This document shows, one piece after another, positions 19,797-25,201 of a stretch of DNA of 63,816 nt (positions are counted from its first letter, which is position 1; the number at the start of each line of letters is the position of its first letter). Source of the DNA: Thermoplasmata archaeon (lineage in GTDB: Archaea > Thermoplasmatota > Thermoplasmata > Lutacidiplasmatales > UBA184); NCBI GenBank assembly GCA_030038095.1, contig JASHPK010000023.1:1-63816 (forward strand), read 5' to 3'. A model generated the notes under the pieces. It was not told the origin of the DNA and made no database searches. It was given only the letters and a program-made list of their open reading frames with translations. The translations under genes and the position numbers were made by a program.

Positions 19797-20582
19797 CTAG
19801 CCGATGTAGCCGAGGTCTTCGCGGGGCCGCTCGGAGGAGGGCGCGGACGACTCGGGCGAGCGGGCCTCGACCTCGTGGATCTTCTGCGCGATGCGGTCGA
19901 TCTCGTGCGCCTTCGCCTGCAGCGCCGCGAGGTCCAGCTTCAGGTTGAGGATCCGCGCGAGGACCCGCAGGACCGCCTCGGCGCTCCGGGGGTCGACGAA
20001 GTAGCCGCTCGTCTCGCCCATGAGGCAGACCCCTTCCATCCCGAACATGCGGCCGAGTCCGAGGAAGAGGCCGCTCGCGCCGATCAGGCCCCCGCCCGGG
20101 TCGTTCCGCGAGAAGACGACCCCGAAGGCGCGCATCGCCTCGACCCGCGCGGCGTTCGTCGCCGCGCCGAGCACCCGGGGCTCCTCCACGACCCGCCCCT
20201 GGGCGAACCCGGCGAGGGTGAACACCTCGCGGACGCCGAGGTCGTGGCAGTAGTCGAGGACCCGCTCGGTGATCTCGTACTGGCCCTCGGGGCTGATCCC
20301 CTGGTAGTCGCCGCCGAGGACGAGAAGGTCCCGCGCTGCGGAGTCCGGCGACTTCCAGTAGAAGAGGTCGTTCGAGACGAGGCGGATGATCCCCTCCTCG
20401 CTCACGTACACCTGGGGCGGGAAGAACTTCGAGTAAATCGTAGCGAGCGGCTTCGCGGGGAGCTGGTCCTTGAGGTAATCGGCGGCGAGCTTCCCGACGT
20501 TGCCGACGCCCGGGAGCCCCTCGACGAGAATCGGGTCGTGGAGCTCCGCCTTTTCGATCGTCCGGATGACGACGTCCTCCAC
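19797..20582 (-). CDS. PAC2-family proteasome assembly chaperone homologue (PbaB-like)
   Basis: A 261-aa PAC2 protein. The signature EGLPGVGNVGKLAADYLKDQ is at residues ~21-40; GGDYQGISPEGQYEITERVLDYC and TLAGFAQGRVVEEPRVLGAA follow, and a C-terminal helical segment (ILNLKLDLAALQAKAHEID) ends the fold. PbaA/PbaB homologues bind proteasome alpha subunits or act as ATP-independent chaperones in archaea. A CCTTAAAGG element at 20615-20623 is the likely promoter. It follows the KaiC-like cluster on the same strand. Confidence 0.86.
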   Translation of the reverse strand: MEDVVIRTIEKAELHDPILVEGLPGVGNVGKLAADYLKDQLPAKPLATIYSKFFPPQVYVSEEGIIRLVSNDLFYWKSPDSAARDLLVLGGDYQGISPEGQYEITERVLDYCHDLGVREVFTLAGFAQGRVVEEPRVLGAATNAARVEAMRAFGVVFSRNDPGGGLIGASGLFLGLGRMFGMEGVCLMGETSGYFVDPRSAEAVLRVLARILNLKLDLAALQAKAHEIDRIAQKIHEVEARSPESSAPSSERPREDLGYIG

Positions 20583-20628: not shown

Positions 20629-21405
20629 TTACGCCCTCGCCGCCCGGTTTCCCGTCGCGGAGGCTTCGCGGACGCGCCAGCCGGACTCGCCGACGTCGAC
20701 CCGCACGATCCGGGAGAGGTCCGGGCGGTTCCCGACCTTGTCGATGAAGAGCGTGTGCTCGTAGCGGTCGTCGCGGGGCTCGGCGCGCAGGTCGAAGGAT
20801 AGATCGGCGAGGTCCTCGAGCAGGCCGAAGACGGTCCGGTCGTGGGCGATCGTGTGCGCGGTGAGGAGCGCCTGACCCCCCATCGTGTGGCAGCGGTGAC
20901 GGATCTGGCGCGCGACCGTCGTGACGTCGCGCGGCTCGAGCACCTCGAAGAAGAAGTCGATCGAGTCGACCACGAGCCGGAACGCCGCGTCGATCGCGGC
21001 GAGGTCGCTCAGCATCCGGTTCGTGAGACTGAACGAGGCGGTCCCCCGGTCGCGGGCCGGCTCCGAGAGCTGGTCGAGCGAGAGGCCCCGCTCGCGGGCG
21101 CTCGCCACGTCGAGCCCCCGGACGAGGACGCGCTGGTAGTACTCTTCGGCGAGGTTGACGATCTTGACGCCGGTCGGGTCCCAGCCGAAGTCGGTGAACG
21201 CCTTCACGACGTCGTCGCTGCGCTCGTAGGTCGTGTAGTAGAGGACGGGCGCGATCCCCACGCCGGCGTTCGCGAACTGCTTCGCGAGGAGCGGCGCGCC
21301 GGATCCGGAGTGTCCCGTGAGGAGGGCGAGCCACCCGGGCGGCAACGCGGTCTGGATCGGCTGGTCGATCTCGGGGATTCCGAGGATCCGCAGCGGGTCG
21401 CTCAC
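20629..21405 (-). CDS. RecA/KaiC-like ATPase-fold protein with degenerate Walker A
   Basis: A 258-aa single RecA-like domain. The Walker A position reads LLTGHSGSGAPLLAKQFA, in which the GK[ST] catalytic pair is replaced by Ala-Pro, so ATP hydrolysis is doubtful. The Walker B-like strand LVVDSIDFFFE and later QALLTAHTIA are kept. KaiC-family proteins bind nucleotide and assemble into rings or filaments. GTG 21405 follows the upstream gene by 2 nt. It is the last of three such genes in a row. Confidence 0.75.
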   Translation of the reverse strand: MSDPLRILGIPEIDQPIQTALPPGWLALLTGHSGSGAPLLAKQFANAGVGIAPVLYYTTYERSDDVVKAFTDFGWDPTGVKIVNLAEEYYQRVLVRGLDVASARERGLSLDQLSEPARDRGTASFSLTNRMLSDLAAIDAAFRLVVDSIDFFFEVLEPRDVTTVARQIRHRCHTMGGQALLTAHTIAHDRTVFGLLEDLADLSFDLRAEPRDDRYEHTLFIDKVGNRPDLSRIVRVDVGESGWRVREASATGNRAARA

Positions 21406-21407
21406 GA

Positions 21408-21989
21408 TCAGCGCCCCCGGGCGATGTCGATCGTCTCGTCGACGACCAGGTTGAGCATCTGCTCCACGGCGCTCGTCTCGTCGTCGCTCGACTCGAGCAC
21501 GAGCGTGAGCACGTTGCGGGCCTTCAGGTTGTTCAGCAGGATGTGAAAGAACTCGGTCAGGAGCTCGGGCGGATTGTGGATGGCGAGGGAGTTCACGCTG
21601 TCGATGACGACGATCGACCGCGGGTGGGGATACTTGCGCAGGAGGTACTCGACGCGCAGCATGATCTCCTCGAGCGCCCGCGGGCTGTCGATGTAGGTGG
21701 CGTTGGGCAGCGGGTTCGAGTAGTTCATCATGATGTGACTGATCGCATCCACGAAGCTGATCCGCTCGAGCGGGACGTCGAGCGCCTGGGCGAGCGTCCA
21801 GACGAACGAGGCCGGGTTGGTGACGGTCACATAGATCGTATGCGCGTCGGTCTCGCTCCCGACGTCGCGGAGCGTCGCGTTCAAGACCGCGAAGTAGTGG
21901 TCCGCGTACTCGCGAGGATCGAGCTTGAGGGCGACCGCGCTCCCTCCCCCGAGCGACCGGAGGCGCTCCCCGAGATCGACGCCGGGCAC
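21408..21989 (-). CDS. RecA/KaiC-like protein lacking P-loop
   Basis: A 193-aa protein with only the latter part of a KaiC-like fold. There is no Walker A; the segment before it reads GERLRSLGGGSAVALKLDPREYADHYF. A strand TIYVTVTNPASFVWTLAQAL and a Walker B-like SIVVIDSVNSLAI are present, followed by NNLKARNVLTLVLES. The GTG start directly abuts the TAG of the complete KaiC-like gene. It looks like a subunit or pseudo-ATPase partner of its neighbours; no known function. Confidence 0.72.
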   Translation of the reverse strand: MPGVDLGERLRSLGGGSAVALKLDPREYADHYFAVLNATLRDVGSETDAHTIYVTVTNPASFVWTLAQALDVPLERISFVDAISHIMMNYSNPLPNATYIDSPRALEEIMLRVEYLLRKYPHPRSIVVIDSVNSLAIHNPPELLTEFFHILLNNLKARNVLTLVLESSDDETSAVEQMLNLVVDETIDIARGR

Positions 21990-22814
21990 CTACATCGCCC
22001 CCTCGGGGCGGCCGCCCTTCAAGTGCGGCGCCATGAGGATGCCGATCGGCGTGAGCTCCATGACGAACTGCGCCCGGGAGTGGGCGGTGCCGCGCATCTT
22101 CACGATCTGGAGGACCCGCAGGATGTCGCCGAGCCGCCGGGTATTCCACAGGAGGATGACCCCGTCGACGATCGCCTCCTCGACCCCGTGGAGGGAGTAG
22201 CGGCCGGGCTGGGGGCCGATCTCGGAGACGAGCAGGGACGTGCACCCGGCCTCGTTCAGGTCCTGGCCGAGTCGCAGCATGAAGTCCCGGATCCGCTCGT
22301 CCCGACGGATCCGGTAGCAGACGCTCGTCAGGCTATCGAGGACGAGCCGGCGGATGCCGAGGGAGCGTACGAGGTCCCGGATCGTCCGGAGCAGGATGTC
22401 GATCTCCTCGGGGAGGAGCTCCTCGTGCTCGAGCCCGAGCCGATCGTAGATGCTGGGGAGATCGACGAAGAGGAGCGAGCCGTCCGCGACGAGATCCTGC
22501 CGGAAGAACTCGAACGTCGAGAGGTTCAGCATCAGCTTCGAGGACGACTCGGTGACGGAGAGGAAGAGCGAGCGCTCGCCGCGCTCCGCCCCCCGGACGA
22601 GGAACTCGAGGCTGAGCGTGGTCTTGCCGGTGCCCACGCTGCCCGCCACGAGCACCATGTTCCCCCGGGGAATCCCGCCCCCGAGGATGTTGTCGAGCCC
22701 TTCGATCCCTGTCGCGCACCGCTCGAGCACGACCGCCGGCGCGAGGATCGATCCCCCGGCCGGTGGCAGGGGCGTGGAAACGTCCGGCGGGTCGGCCCCT
22801 GACGGAGTCTCCAT
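21990..22814 (-). CDS. KaiC-like RecA-family ATPase
   Basis: A 274-aa KaiC/RadA-type ATPase. Walker A is GSVGTGKTTLSLEFL (~residue 64 on), preceded by TGIEGLDNILGGGIPRGNMVLVA, the usual KaiC lead-in. Walker B is RLVLDSLTSVCYRI, and SLLVSEIG follows. A central helical insertion (HEELLPEEIDILLRTIRDL) is typical. ATG 22814 is chosen; GTG 22853 would overlap the VirB4-like gene by 16 nt. It is the only member of the trio with an intact nucleotide site. Cellular role unknown. Confidence 0.8.
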   Translation of the reverse strand: METPSGADPPDVSTPLPPAGGSILAPAVVLERCATGIEGLDNILGGGIPRGNMVLVAGSVGTGKTTLSLEFLVRGAERGERSLFLSVTESSSKLMLNLSTFEFFRQDLVADGSLLFVDLPSIYDRLGLEHEELLPEEIDILLRTIRDLVRSLGIRRLVLDSLTSVCYRIRRDERIRDFMLRLGQDLNEAGCTSLLVSEIGPQPGRYSLHGVEEAIVDGVILLWNTRRLGDILRVLQIVKMRGTAHSRAQFVMELTPIGILMAPHLKGGRPEGAM

Positions 22815-22837
22815 CGAGAAAACGAGCCGTTCCGTCC

Positions 22838-25201
22838 CTAAGAGGGTTTCCACGAGCCGGCAACGCCGCCGGCGGCGGCGGTGCCTCCGGACCGGTCCGG
22901 CCCCGGAAGTCGGTCGCGCCGGATCGTCCAGAACGATCCGAGCTCGTCGCGACCGATCCGCTCGATGGCCCCGACGCGGCCGAGCCGACGGCCCACCGAG
23001 CGGACGGCCCCTCCCGTGGGGTCTGCGTGCGCGCGGAGCTCGCTCAGATAGACCCGAAACGACGCGGCGGCCGGGTCCGCGCTCGCCAGCTCCCGAAGGC
23101 GAGCCAGGACCTGCGCGGCGGCCCCGATCTGCGCGTCCCCGAGCCCCGGGGCCTTCGAGCGGACGGGGAATCCGCGGGGAGGACCGGGAGAGTCCCGGGA
23201 GGGAGGCTCATCCGTCGTTCCCTTCGACGAATCCGGAGGCTCGGCGCGTGACCCGAGCGTTCGGGCCGTTCGCACCGTGAACGTCGCATTCCCCTTCCCG
23301 AGCAGCACGAACGCCCGCCCCCGGGGCAGCCCGAGCAGCGAGGTCGGCGCGATGCTTCGGCTCGCCCGTTCGAGCTCTCGGGCCTCCGAGGGCGACCCTC
23401 GGAACACCACGAAGTCGGCCACGTTGGTCCAGACGGCCTCTTGGACCTCGTCCGGAAGCGAACCGACCGCCTGGGTCGCGAGCACCACGTGGACGTTGCG
23501 CCGACGACCGAGCTTCAGCATCTCCGCGAGGCTCTCGTTCGCGAACCACTGGGCCTCGTCGAGAAGGACGAACGTCTTCCTCGGATCCGTCCGCCCGATC
23601 AGCTCCGACCAGACGAGGGCCAGGTACACGGAGAGGAGGTAGCGGGCATTCGTTTCGCCGACCTCGCCCGCGTCGCCGGACACGATCGTGATCCGGCCCG
23701 GCGCCACGAGACTGCCGGGGTGGAGCACCGGCTCGGGGTCGCACAGCAGGCGTTCGAGGAGCCGGCTGCGGACCACCTCGTAGAGGAGGCGCCGCGCTCC
23801 CTCGGTGTCGTCCGGCCGTTGCCGGATCCGCTCGCCGAGCTCCCGGAACGCCTCGAGTCCCTCCGCGGGCACCGCTCGATGCGTGCGGCCTCCGGTCGCG
23901 AGCAACGTGTGGGCATCGCGGAGCGTCGCGCCGGGAATGGAGGAAGCGGCCTGCAACGTCCTCGTCAGCATCTCCTCGAGCCGGGGGCCCCAGAACCCGT
24001 TCGCCCCGTAGCGGCCGGCGCGGACCCGATGGAGCGCGCGGACGAGGTCGAAGATCCTCCGCTCGCTCGCAAGCCAGTGCGCTCGTCCCTCGGGCTCGAG
24101 ACCCTCGAGCACGTTGAGCGAGGCGGTCCCCTCGGCCGCGAAGACCCTCAGGAGCCGGTCGCCCGACGACGGAACGACCGCGGCTTCGAACTCCCGGGCG
24201 GTTTCCCCCAGCGGGTCGAAGAGCACGACGTTCCCCCACCGGGTCGCGCGCTCGGCCAGGGAGATCAGGAGCGAGCTCTTGCCCATGCCGGTCTCCCCGA
24301 GGATCGCCGTGTGCCGCCCCTGATCCGGCTCGATCGGGGGACCGACGACCAGGCCGGAGTCGGTGCGGCCGAACGGAAGCATCTCGCCCGGTGACGGGGC
24401 CCCCGCGGGCCCGAGAAGCACTCGAGCGGTGGGCGTCGGGAAGAGCGCGACGAGCTCCTCATCCGACACGAGGAACTCCTTCGAGCCGCGGCAGCGATCC
24501 GCGAGGTTCGTGGGAAAGCGGATCGGCGGGCGGTCGGTGGACGCGAGGACCGCGTTCAGGCTTCCCAAGACCGTTCGAGCACGTCCCCGGCCCGGGGGAC
24601 CCTCGAGCCCACGGGCCTCGGCCCGCACCTTCCAGAAGAGGAGCGGGGCGTGGAAGGGTGGGGCTCCGCCAGTGCGGACGGGCCGTTCCCTCCCGCGGTC
24701 GGAGACGGGAAATCTTCCCGCCGTGTGCCACACGTCCCACCGTCGGTTATCGAAAGGAAGGGTCGAGCTTCCCGCGGGAAGGAACCGCCAGATCACCTCG
24801 ACTCCCGGGGGTGCGGTGTCGAGCGATCGGACGATCCCATCCCCCCAGTGCCGCCCTTCGGGGAGGACGGGCTCGAGGGTGGACGCGGTGAGTGTCCGCC
24901 GCGCGGACGCGAAGTCGGTCGCCTCGGGATCGAAGGATCGCGGGTCGCTCGGTACCCAGCGCGCCGGGGACGTGGACGGGCCGAATACGCGCGCGATCCA
25001 TCGGGCGGTCGCGGGGTCGCGGCACCGCAACGTCACCGAGGTCGGGTTCCCCGAGCGGAAGGTCAACGAGGCGGTAGCACCGAGGCCGTGGCCCACTCGG
25101 AGCCCGAGCGCGAGTCGCTCCGAGAAGGACGCGTGCTCCTCCCGGCGGAGTTCGAGACCGGGAGAGGAGAGCGACCAGGCGAACTCAGGCCCGAGCGGCA
25201 T
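22838..25201 (-). CDS. VirB4/HerA-like (DUF87) ATPase with C-terminal winged-helix region
   Basis: A 787-aa additional-strand ATPase of the FtsK/HerA group. Residues 1-~280 are divergent and beta-rich. The conserved block follows with FLVSDEELVALFPTP (the usual L-F/W-H-x-P lead-in of TraC/VirB4-like proteins). Walker A is AILGETGMGKSSLL (~residue 335), then VVLFDPLGETARE, Walker B FVLLDEAQWFANES and the sensor VVLATQAVGSLP. The C-terminal ~150 residues look like a Ser/Pro linker plus a winged helix (LRELASADPAAASFRVYLSE). Such ATPases pump DNA or proteins. It heads the three-gene KaiC-like cluster. Confidence 0.8.
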   Translation of the reverse strand: MPLGPEFAWSLSSPGLELRREEHASFSERLALGLRVGHGLGATASLTFRSGNPTSVTLRCRDPATARWIARVFGPSTSPARWVPSDPRSFDPEATDFASARRTLTASTLEPVLPEGRHWGDGIVRSLDTAPPGVEVIWRFLPAGSSTLPFDNRRWDVWHTAGRFPVSDRGRERPVRTGGAPPFHAPLLFWKVRAEARGLEGPPGRGRARTVLGSLNAVLASTDRPPIRFPTNLADRCRGSKEFLVSDEELVALFPTPTARVLLGPAGAPSPGEMLPFGRTDSGLVVGPPIEPDQGRHTAILGETGMGKSSLLISLAERATRWGNVVLFDPLGETAREFEAAVVPSSGDRLLRVFAAEGTASLNVLEGLEPEGRAHWLASERRIFDLVRALHRVRAGRYGANGFWGPRLEEMLTRTLQAASSIPGATLRDAHTLLATGGRTHRAVPAEGLEAFRELGERIRQRPDDTEGARRLLYEVVRSRLLERLLCDPEPVLHPGSLVAPGRITIVSGDAGEVGETNARYLLSVYLALVWSELIGRTDPRKTFVLLDEAQWFANESLAEMLKLGRRRNVHVVLATQAVGSLPDEVQEAVWTNVADFVVFRGSPSEARELERASRSIAPTSLLGLPRGRAFVLLGKGNATFTVRTARTLGSRAEPPDSSKGTTDEPPSRDSPGPPRGFPVRSKAPGLGDAQIGAAAQVLARLRELASADPAAASFRVYLSELRAHADPTGGAVRSVGRRLGRVGAIERIGRDELGSFWTIRRDRLPGPDRSGGTAAAGGVAGSWKPS

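Follow-up and report, generated by a model that had tools for sequence, protein, structure and literature searches.

KaiC-like proteins of archaea have been put forward as hubs for signalling and as switches of filaments. In the literature considered here, the best studied filament protein among them is ArlH, a homohexamer which binds beneath the ATPase of the archaellum and is regarded as the foremost candidate for switching it (PMC12024892). Further KaiC-like proteins (arCOG01171, 01174, and 01175) associate with archaeal pilus loci (PMC4858521), and inactivated KaiC domains (iKaiC, DUF835, MEDS) have been described (PMC5847659). On the side of the filament machineries, the CdiP pilus of Cuniculiplasma comprises a split platform (Fa/Fb) and two ATPases (E1/E2) (PMC12448462). 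A ring of three different RecA-fold proteins is found in the hetero-hexamer Elp4-Elp5-Elp6 of Elongator, with the ATP state controlling binding (PMC10018365). We compared with them a locus on a stretch of 63,816 nucleotides (nt) from a Thermoplasmata archaeon (GenBank assembly GCA_030038095.1, contig JASHPK010000023.1, order Lutacidiplasmatales), the whole of which is called the window in the following. The locus consists of a HerA-like ATPase gene (A) and three KaiC-like genes (B, C, and D). B, C, and D represent one active and two inactive KaiC-fold proteins, which are an old and evolutionarily fixed set.

A preliminary description of this locus had reported four same-strand genes lying nearly head to tail, which were interpreted as one hetero-oligomeric motor or translocation complex. 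The observation itself was confirmed, as all four open reading frames (ORFs) were recovered on the minus strand, and its interpretation as a four-gene complex is partly supported. The four genes are:

22838 to 25201, minus strand: A, ATPase of the HerA/VirB4/TraD superfamily, 787 amino acids (aa), Pfam DUF87, with intact Walker A and Walker B
21990 to 22814, minus strand: B, single-domain KaiC-like ATPase with intact Walker A, by Pfam KaiC and motifs
21408 to 21989, minus strand: C, KaiC-like protein of 193 aa without P-loop and without KxR finger, by Pfam KaiC
20629 to 21405, minus strand: D, KaiC-like protein with degenerate P-loop, by Pfam KaiC, with GTG start

B starts with the ATG at 22814, with a GTG at 22853 as a possible other start, and the GTG start codon of C is located immediately past the stop codon of B. 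The proteins B, C, and D, each comprising a single domain within 193-274 aa, score 182.6, 30.8, and 49.6 bits, respectively, all above the curated cut-off of 26.6 bits of Pfam KaiC (PF06745). The clock protein KaiC consists of two tandem KaiC domains, CI-CII, which separates it from the single-domain proteins B, C, and D. Within the trio of the window, only B carries a working Walker A P-loop (GSVGTGKTT), accompanied by the Glu of a TES motif, Walker B, and a KMRG finger. Based on knowledge of KaiC, we take the TES Glu to be the catalytic Glu and the KxR/KMRG motif to be a trans-acting finger. In C, Walker A is missing, and its family is marked by the conserved motifs ESPTMLE and DSxNSLAIHN. 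D shows GHSGSGAPL at the Walker A position, the Lys being replaced by Pro, and retains the Glu of TTxER as well as the Lys of the KxR finger, the finger Arg being changed to Gly. These motif states bear out the preliminary description, which had attributed a true Walker A only to the first KaiC-like protein, no P-loop to the second, and GHSGSGAP to the third. Having a KaiC-like domain with lost ATPase motifs, C and D are both inactivated KaiC (iKaiC) proteins. The relationship of D to B is apparent from a profile match with 98% probability (E 2.7e-14).

Extension of the analysis toward homologues revealed that this asymmetry is kept. Locus counts are based on six-frame profile searches, since gene calling had returned wrong B and C genes at some loci. 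The searches covered 107 stretches (sampled loci, the 56 loci L031-L086, and the window; G, L, and f numbers are analysis labels for genomes, loci, and families). L081 and L130 were removed for carrying the same C as L043 and L060, which left 105 stretches; L135 was unused, being a 10-base piece, and L150 holds none of the genes. In loci with D, B retains the Walker Lys in 80/80, the catalytic Glu in 80/80, and the Arg of the KxR finger in 79/80 cases. A Walker A pattern is carried by 0/100 C homologues. Likewise, the Walker Lys was found in 0/81 D homologues, being replaced by Glu (46), Pro (13), His (7), Asp (6), Ser (4), Gln (3), or Gly (2), and the finger Lys of D is retained in 78 of the 81. 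A Walker A pattern encountered in D of L057 was dismissed as a P-loop due to its C-terminal position.

B was also detected in 20 loci without detected D. As these take in contig ends (e.g., L032, L076, L079, and L085), 20 is not a count of losses. Within this group, the finger Arg is lost in seven loci (L084, L085, L114, L115, L117, L123, and L131) and the catalytic Glu in three (L114, L115, and L118), the affected B proteins belonging to families f7, f9, f10, and f17 and to two Methanomassiliicoccaceae bins. B is intact in the D-less genomes G465, G446, and G130, so that the loss of D accompanies decay of B in some lineages only. In L114, L115, L117, L118, L131, and L084, all without D, a B protein lacking the finger Arg, the catalytic Glu, or the Ser of Walker B still sits with C, and a pilin gene follows C in 6/6.

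The trio is widespread. Within the order of the window, 81 of 106 genomes, representing all nine genera, have C, and the C-family profile (E<=1e-10) matched 205 of 389 Thermoplasmatota genomes in 87 of 155 genera. B, C, and D were all detected in 80 of the 105 stretches. In 76 of these 80, they are contiguous on one strand, with under 250 nt between match edges. In the other four (L136, L137, L198, and L202), one gene occupies a C-D gap of 640-1130 nt. In L136 and L137, the intervening gene encodes a domain resembling MetOD1 (26.0 and 24.6 bits, respectively, at a cut-off of 23.8); in L198 and L202, it has no significant Pfam match. The MetOD1/ATC_hydrolase-like protein (L136:3763-4875, L137:8594-9700) is a candidate sensor for the trio; MetOD1 is predicted to serve archaeal response regulators as an output domain (PMC5847659). 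Among deeper relatives, the order B-C-D is preserved in six loci (L192, L194, L195, L198, L201, and L202), the C match reaching 85-121 bits. L193 has C and D only, L196 has B with two C-like genes, L199 has B and C, and L197 has C alone at a contig end. At L200:7645-15355 (G166, f46), three C-like genes lie close together, with B beside D 5 kb off. The recurrence of the gene order and of the same inactivations through the phylum is more than chance. B-C-D is an ancient unit, and A is not part of it. Conserved co-occurrence, the check suggested for all four genes, was seen for B-C-D, A having been found with the trio only in the family of the window.

Two further observations concern relatives of B and C. 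An apparent stop codon inside C of several f7 genomes was not accepted, as C of L115 is an intact 189-aa ORF and the match probably spans the preceding stop in this one case. In bacterial relatives (L087-L094, L096, L097, L099, and L100; Pseudomonas, Bradyrhizobium, Acidobacteria, and others), two B-like stretches occur in tandem, the first one being 29-35% identical to B.

For A, the preliminary report of a DUF87-type ATPase with intact Walker motifs was reproduced (Walker A GETGMGKSS, Walker B LLDEAQ), and the Walker B columns are invariant in an 11-row alignment. The Pfam DUF87 match (30.7 bits, cut-off 23.2) covers residues 295-338 only. The best whole-domain match is mad8 of PADLOC (E 5.5e-19, residues 276-634), and A resembles TrwB and FtsK across the P-loop region. 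P-loop, Walker B, and the overall ATPase domain are common to A, the HerA/VirB4/TraD ATPases, and the MADS protein Mad8. Scores remained far below the thresholds of the VirB4 model TIGR00929 (21.2 bits, cut-off 643) and of HerA_antiphage (23.1 of 800 bits). By eye, a winged-helix-like tail was recognized at the C-terminus. A is present in 14/14 tested genomes of the window's family that have C and was not found (E<=1e-20) in 9/9 tested genomes with C outside this family. Even within the family, the distance between A and B is at most 300 nt in only 24 of 36 loci and larger in the other 12. In L031, L035, L036, and L037, A is ~44% identical to the A of the window where C is 85-89% identical; judged by these identities, A evolves faster than its neighbours.

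A defence origin was considered and rejected: PADLOC returned mad8 and HerA for A, a weak mad8 match for B (E 1.6e-4), and none for C and D, and the conserved gene position speaks against a mobile defence island. A phage origin was discarded as well, with PHROGs matches of A and B mostly to generic P-loop families and none for C and D. Beside a C-terminal remnant of A, L058 (5789-7090) and L062 (5864-7159) host similar recombinase-looking genes (by eye) on the opposite strand, as though an element had inserted into A.

In the window, the four genes are enclosed by two neighbours:

19797 to 20582, minus strand: PAC2-family protein, Pfam PAC2 with 181.7 bits
25334 to 26455, plus strand: DRG-type GTPase, divergent from A, Pfam MMR_HSR1, MMR_HSR1_Xtn, and TGS

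The immediate neighbours of A are DRG and B, and D is followed by the PAC2 gene and then by a putative S-adenosylmethionine-dependent methyltransferase gene (Methyltransf_28). Five genomes from the genus of the window (G034, G046, G049, G050, and G068) lack A, B, C, and D altogether, and DRG lies directly beside PAC2, a clean absence at the loci L233, L234, L235, L236, and L237. A PAC2 tree placed these five block losses in two supported clades, corresponding to one or two loss events. A gave a strong match in five of 19 same-genus genomes scored as C-less. Two of the five, G048 and G084, are in fact contig ends; the others (G047, G104, and G032) have A, and B-C-D was not found in them, the contig of G032 ending 0.9 kb after A. 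In G104 (L231:6380-8381), a transposase-like gene and an AbrB-like/PIN-like pair (by eye) occupy the space between A and PAC2. The assumed link of A with B-C-D is reflected in the joint absence as one block in five genomes, but not in the three that keep A without a C match. A is a member of a local gene block and not of the ancient unit. The pump ATPase as a core part, as assumed in the preliminary description, was not sustained; what stood of the proposed hetero-oligomer is its set of one active and two inactive RecA/KaiC subunits, recovered as a fixed set as expected.

Analysis of the gene context outside the window's family pointed to a link of the trio with type IV pili. We counted 49 loci as outside, with L130 of the family wrongly included and several loci stopping soon past the operon. 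In 18 loci, short same-strand proteins starting like AVSPVIATILMVAITVVLAAVLYV were found behind B-C(-D). The single protein of this type that was tested matched Pfam Pilin_N with 42.2 bits and the NCBIfam archaellin/type IV pilin N-terminus. Pilin_N is rare, with 77 matches in 25 genomes with C, and 20 of the 77 (one below the Pfam cut-off) are located on the same strand within ~1.1 kb downstream of B-C(-D). Altogether, 13 of the 25 genomes have a pilin-adjacent operon (G109, G130, G186, G268, G277, G339, G347, G358, G383, G438, G441, G446, and G461), compared with 0.08 genomes expected under random placement. In six loci (apparently f34 and f37), the gene upstream of B encodes a protein whose start looks pilin-like (by eye). 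Of the two tested, each matched a lamin-tail domain, in one case above the cut-off, and no pilin model was matched by either. In G230 (L197), a minor-pilin-like gene (by eye; Pfam DUF7289) is followed by T2SSE, T2SSF, and T2SSF and then by a convergent C gene, with the contig end behind it. Control of surface assembly, mentioned in the preliminary description as an alternative, fits this pilin context of 13/25 genomes and the motor operon of G230.

The T2SSF platform was detected above cut-off in 35/35 sampled genomes with C and in 5/15 without. Across the phylum sample, 197 genomes have C and T2SSF, 8 have C alone, 82 have T2SSF alone, and 102 have neither, i.e., T2SSF occurs in 197/205 genomes with C vs. 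82/184 without (Fisher p 2e-32, kinship ignored). An ATPase-platform-platform-ATPase (E-F-F-E) operon was observed in eight of the ten C genomes whose motor locus was read (G000, G138, G268, G003, G109, G277, G339, and G383), G000 being the window's own genome; the motor loci of G119 and G377 are ATPase-platform-platform. The E-F-F-E layout is also present in G157, G195, G198, and G201, all without a C match. A second pilus locus of G000 (L165, contig 15, 6686-13356) comprises T2SSE, T2SSF, T2SSF, and a pilin-like gene (20.4 of 25.2 bits). Directly behind it lies another KaiC-like gene (31.9 bits) with an apparently altered P-loop (SGADSAKS), and an AAA-type gene (22.7 of 27 bits) also follows.

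Starting from the observed gene order, conservation, motif states, pilin adjacency, and co-occurrence, we infer a ring with its stoichiometry, ATP turnover, and pilus contact. That B-C-D forms a heteromeric KaiC-type ring, serving as an optional accessory or switch of the type IV pilus in Thermoplasmatota, is the reading we consider most likely, at about even odds. B would be the working subunit, binding and turning over ATP. Due to the loss of the P-loop Lys, D would have lost the usual ATP binding, yet its finger Lys may complete the ATP site of B from the next position. C, with neither P-loop nor finger, may be a structural or docking subunit. The ATP state of the ring could then tune pilus assembly, either by binding to the pilus ATPase or platform or by controlling the use of the adjacent pilin, akin to the action of ArlH on the archaellum. 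In the window's family, the HerA-like ATPase would have been added ahead of the operon. A more specific version can be put forward only tentatively: the asymmetric hetero-ring, two of its three subunit kinds being ATP-blind, may be the ArlH counterpart of a second type IV pilus with split platform and two ATPases across Thermoplasmatota, with few active sites, each completed by the finger of an inactive neighbour. With one active and two inactivated copies kept together through a phylum, the operon is a natural experiment on a ring ATPase built with few working sites and a concrete candidate for pilus control in Thermoplasmatota. The predictions following from it are that the finger of D acts in trans on B and that the trio contacts E1/E2 or pilins.

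Several findings weigh against a pilus-associated hetero-ring. In profile comparison, C resembles B weakly (23% probability, E 9e-4). In 12 of the 25 genomes with C, no Pilin_N gene adjoins the operon. The window's own genome (67 contigs, 1.84 Mb in total) is one of them; both of its Pilin_N matches share a different contig, and all of its detected pilin and motor genes lie on contigs other than that of the window. At the motor of G230, the C gene is distantly related to the family (105 bits), and neither B nor D was seen there. T2SSF is still present in 82 of the 184 phylum genomes without C, and the co-occurrence counts carry no correction for phylogeny. D was not found in nine of 35 genomes having C (with a partial match in one of the nine), showing that D is not always needed. 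Furthermore, five genomes of the window's genus without C match (G034, G040, G047, G068, and G104) keep two T2SSF genes; at the DRG locus, G034 and G068 are without the A-D block and G047 and G104 without B-C-D. Consequently, B-C-D is dispensable. A pilus platform can be retained in its absence, and this speaks more for an accessory or regulatory function than for one in the core motor.

The same platform-retaining genomes are in line with B-C-D being a general KaiC signalling hub, i.e., a heteromeric relay with several outputs including pilin expression and no contact to the pilus machine. The additional genes between C and D, MetOD1-like in L136 and L137 and with no significant Pfam match in L198 and L202, would suit such a relay, as does the description of iKaiC domains as signalling parts (PMC5847659). 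No signalling family was recognized among the recurrent neighbours, most of which are unannotated, and the partner that does recur in adjacent position outside the window's family is the pilin, with the C gene at the motor operon of G230 pointing in the same direction. We regard a signalling hub as rather unlikely.

Combining all four genes into one hetero-oligomeric motor for the translocation of nucleic acids or proteins is improbable. It would account for the presence of A in all 14 tested family genomes with C, for its closeness to B in 24 of 36 family loci, for the joint absence of A-B-C-D in five genomes, and for the resemblance of A to TrwB/FtsK in the P-loop region and to mad8 in the ATPase domain. 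The joint loss of neighbours can, however, equal a single deletion, with the five losses falling in two clades, and such a motor is difficult to reconcile with the missing A in the nine tested C genomes outside the family (E<=1e-20), with a distance of over 300 nt between A and B in 12 of the 36 loci, and with the occurrence of A without B-C-D in three genomes, including G032 with its contig end. Very improbable to us is an Elp456-like ring, in which B-C-D would handle RNA as Elp4/5/6 of Elongator bind tRNA under ATP control. Each set indeed consists of three different RecA-fold subunits, as in Elp456 (PMC10018365), and Elong_Iki1 (Elp5) matches 4/16 C members (best E 8.6e-4) and PAXNEB (Elp4) 8/15 D members (best E 1e-9). 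KaiC matches the same proteins better (best E 1.5e-7 for C and 3.1e-30 for D). In the window, C reaches 15.2 of 22.5 bits for Elong_Iki1, B reaches 16.7 of 28 bits for PAXNEB, and D has no PAXNEB match. Elongator chains are absent among the PDB matches, and the gene context found is that of pili, not of tRNA modification.

In comparison with the described systems, the accessory pilus ring favoured here combines features of known kinds, namely pilus-neighbouring KaiC-like ATPases and inactivated KaiC domains. A limited literature search yielded no description of a fixed, phylum-wide operon for three stand-alone KaiC-like proteins, one of them active and the other two separately inactivated; they may be recorded as arCOGs. 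With the pilus-linked KaiC arCOGs and iKaiC proteins, the trio shares the family, the association with pilus neighbourhoods, and the concept of the inactivated domain; it differs as a fixed operon with two separately inactivated stand-alone proteins, spread through Thermoplasmatota. Elongator differs in being eukaryotic and tRNA-binding, with weak and partial profile matches here. The likeness to CdiP lies in the motor, as E-F-F-E is present in the window's genome and in eight of ten C genomes with a motor locus read, the other two being E-F-F; in the CdiP paper, KaiC appears once, in the reference list (PMC12448462). With ArlH, the trio has in common the single KaiC/RecA-type domain, the tie of a KaiC-like protein to a type IV filament machine, and partly degenerate ATPase motifs, the Walker B of ArlH being divergent (PMC12024892). 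Differences are the three different subunits, two of them without P-loop Lys, and the scores for NCBIfam NF052589 (cut-off 215 bits), with 36.6 bits for B, 21.8 for D, and no match for C. Moreover, no arlI/arlJ pair lies beside B-C-D in the window, the C gene convergent with the E-F-F operon in L197 being a partial exception. A separate ArlH match (E<=1e-25) is present in 16 of 35 genomes with C (10 above cut-off) and in none of the other 19, the window's own included. B-C-D is best read as comparable to ArlH in role, but as distinct from it by score and context.

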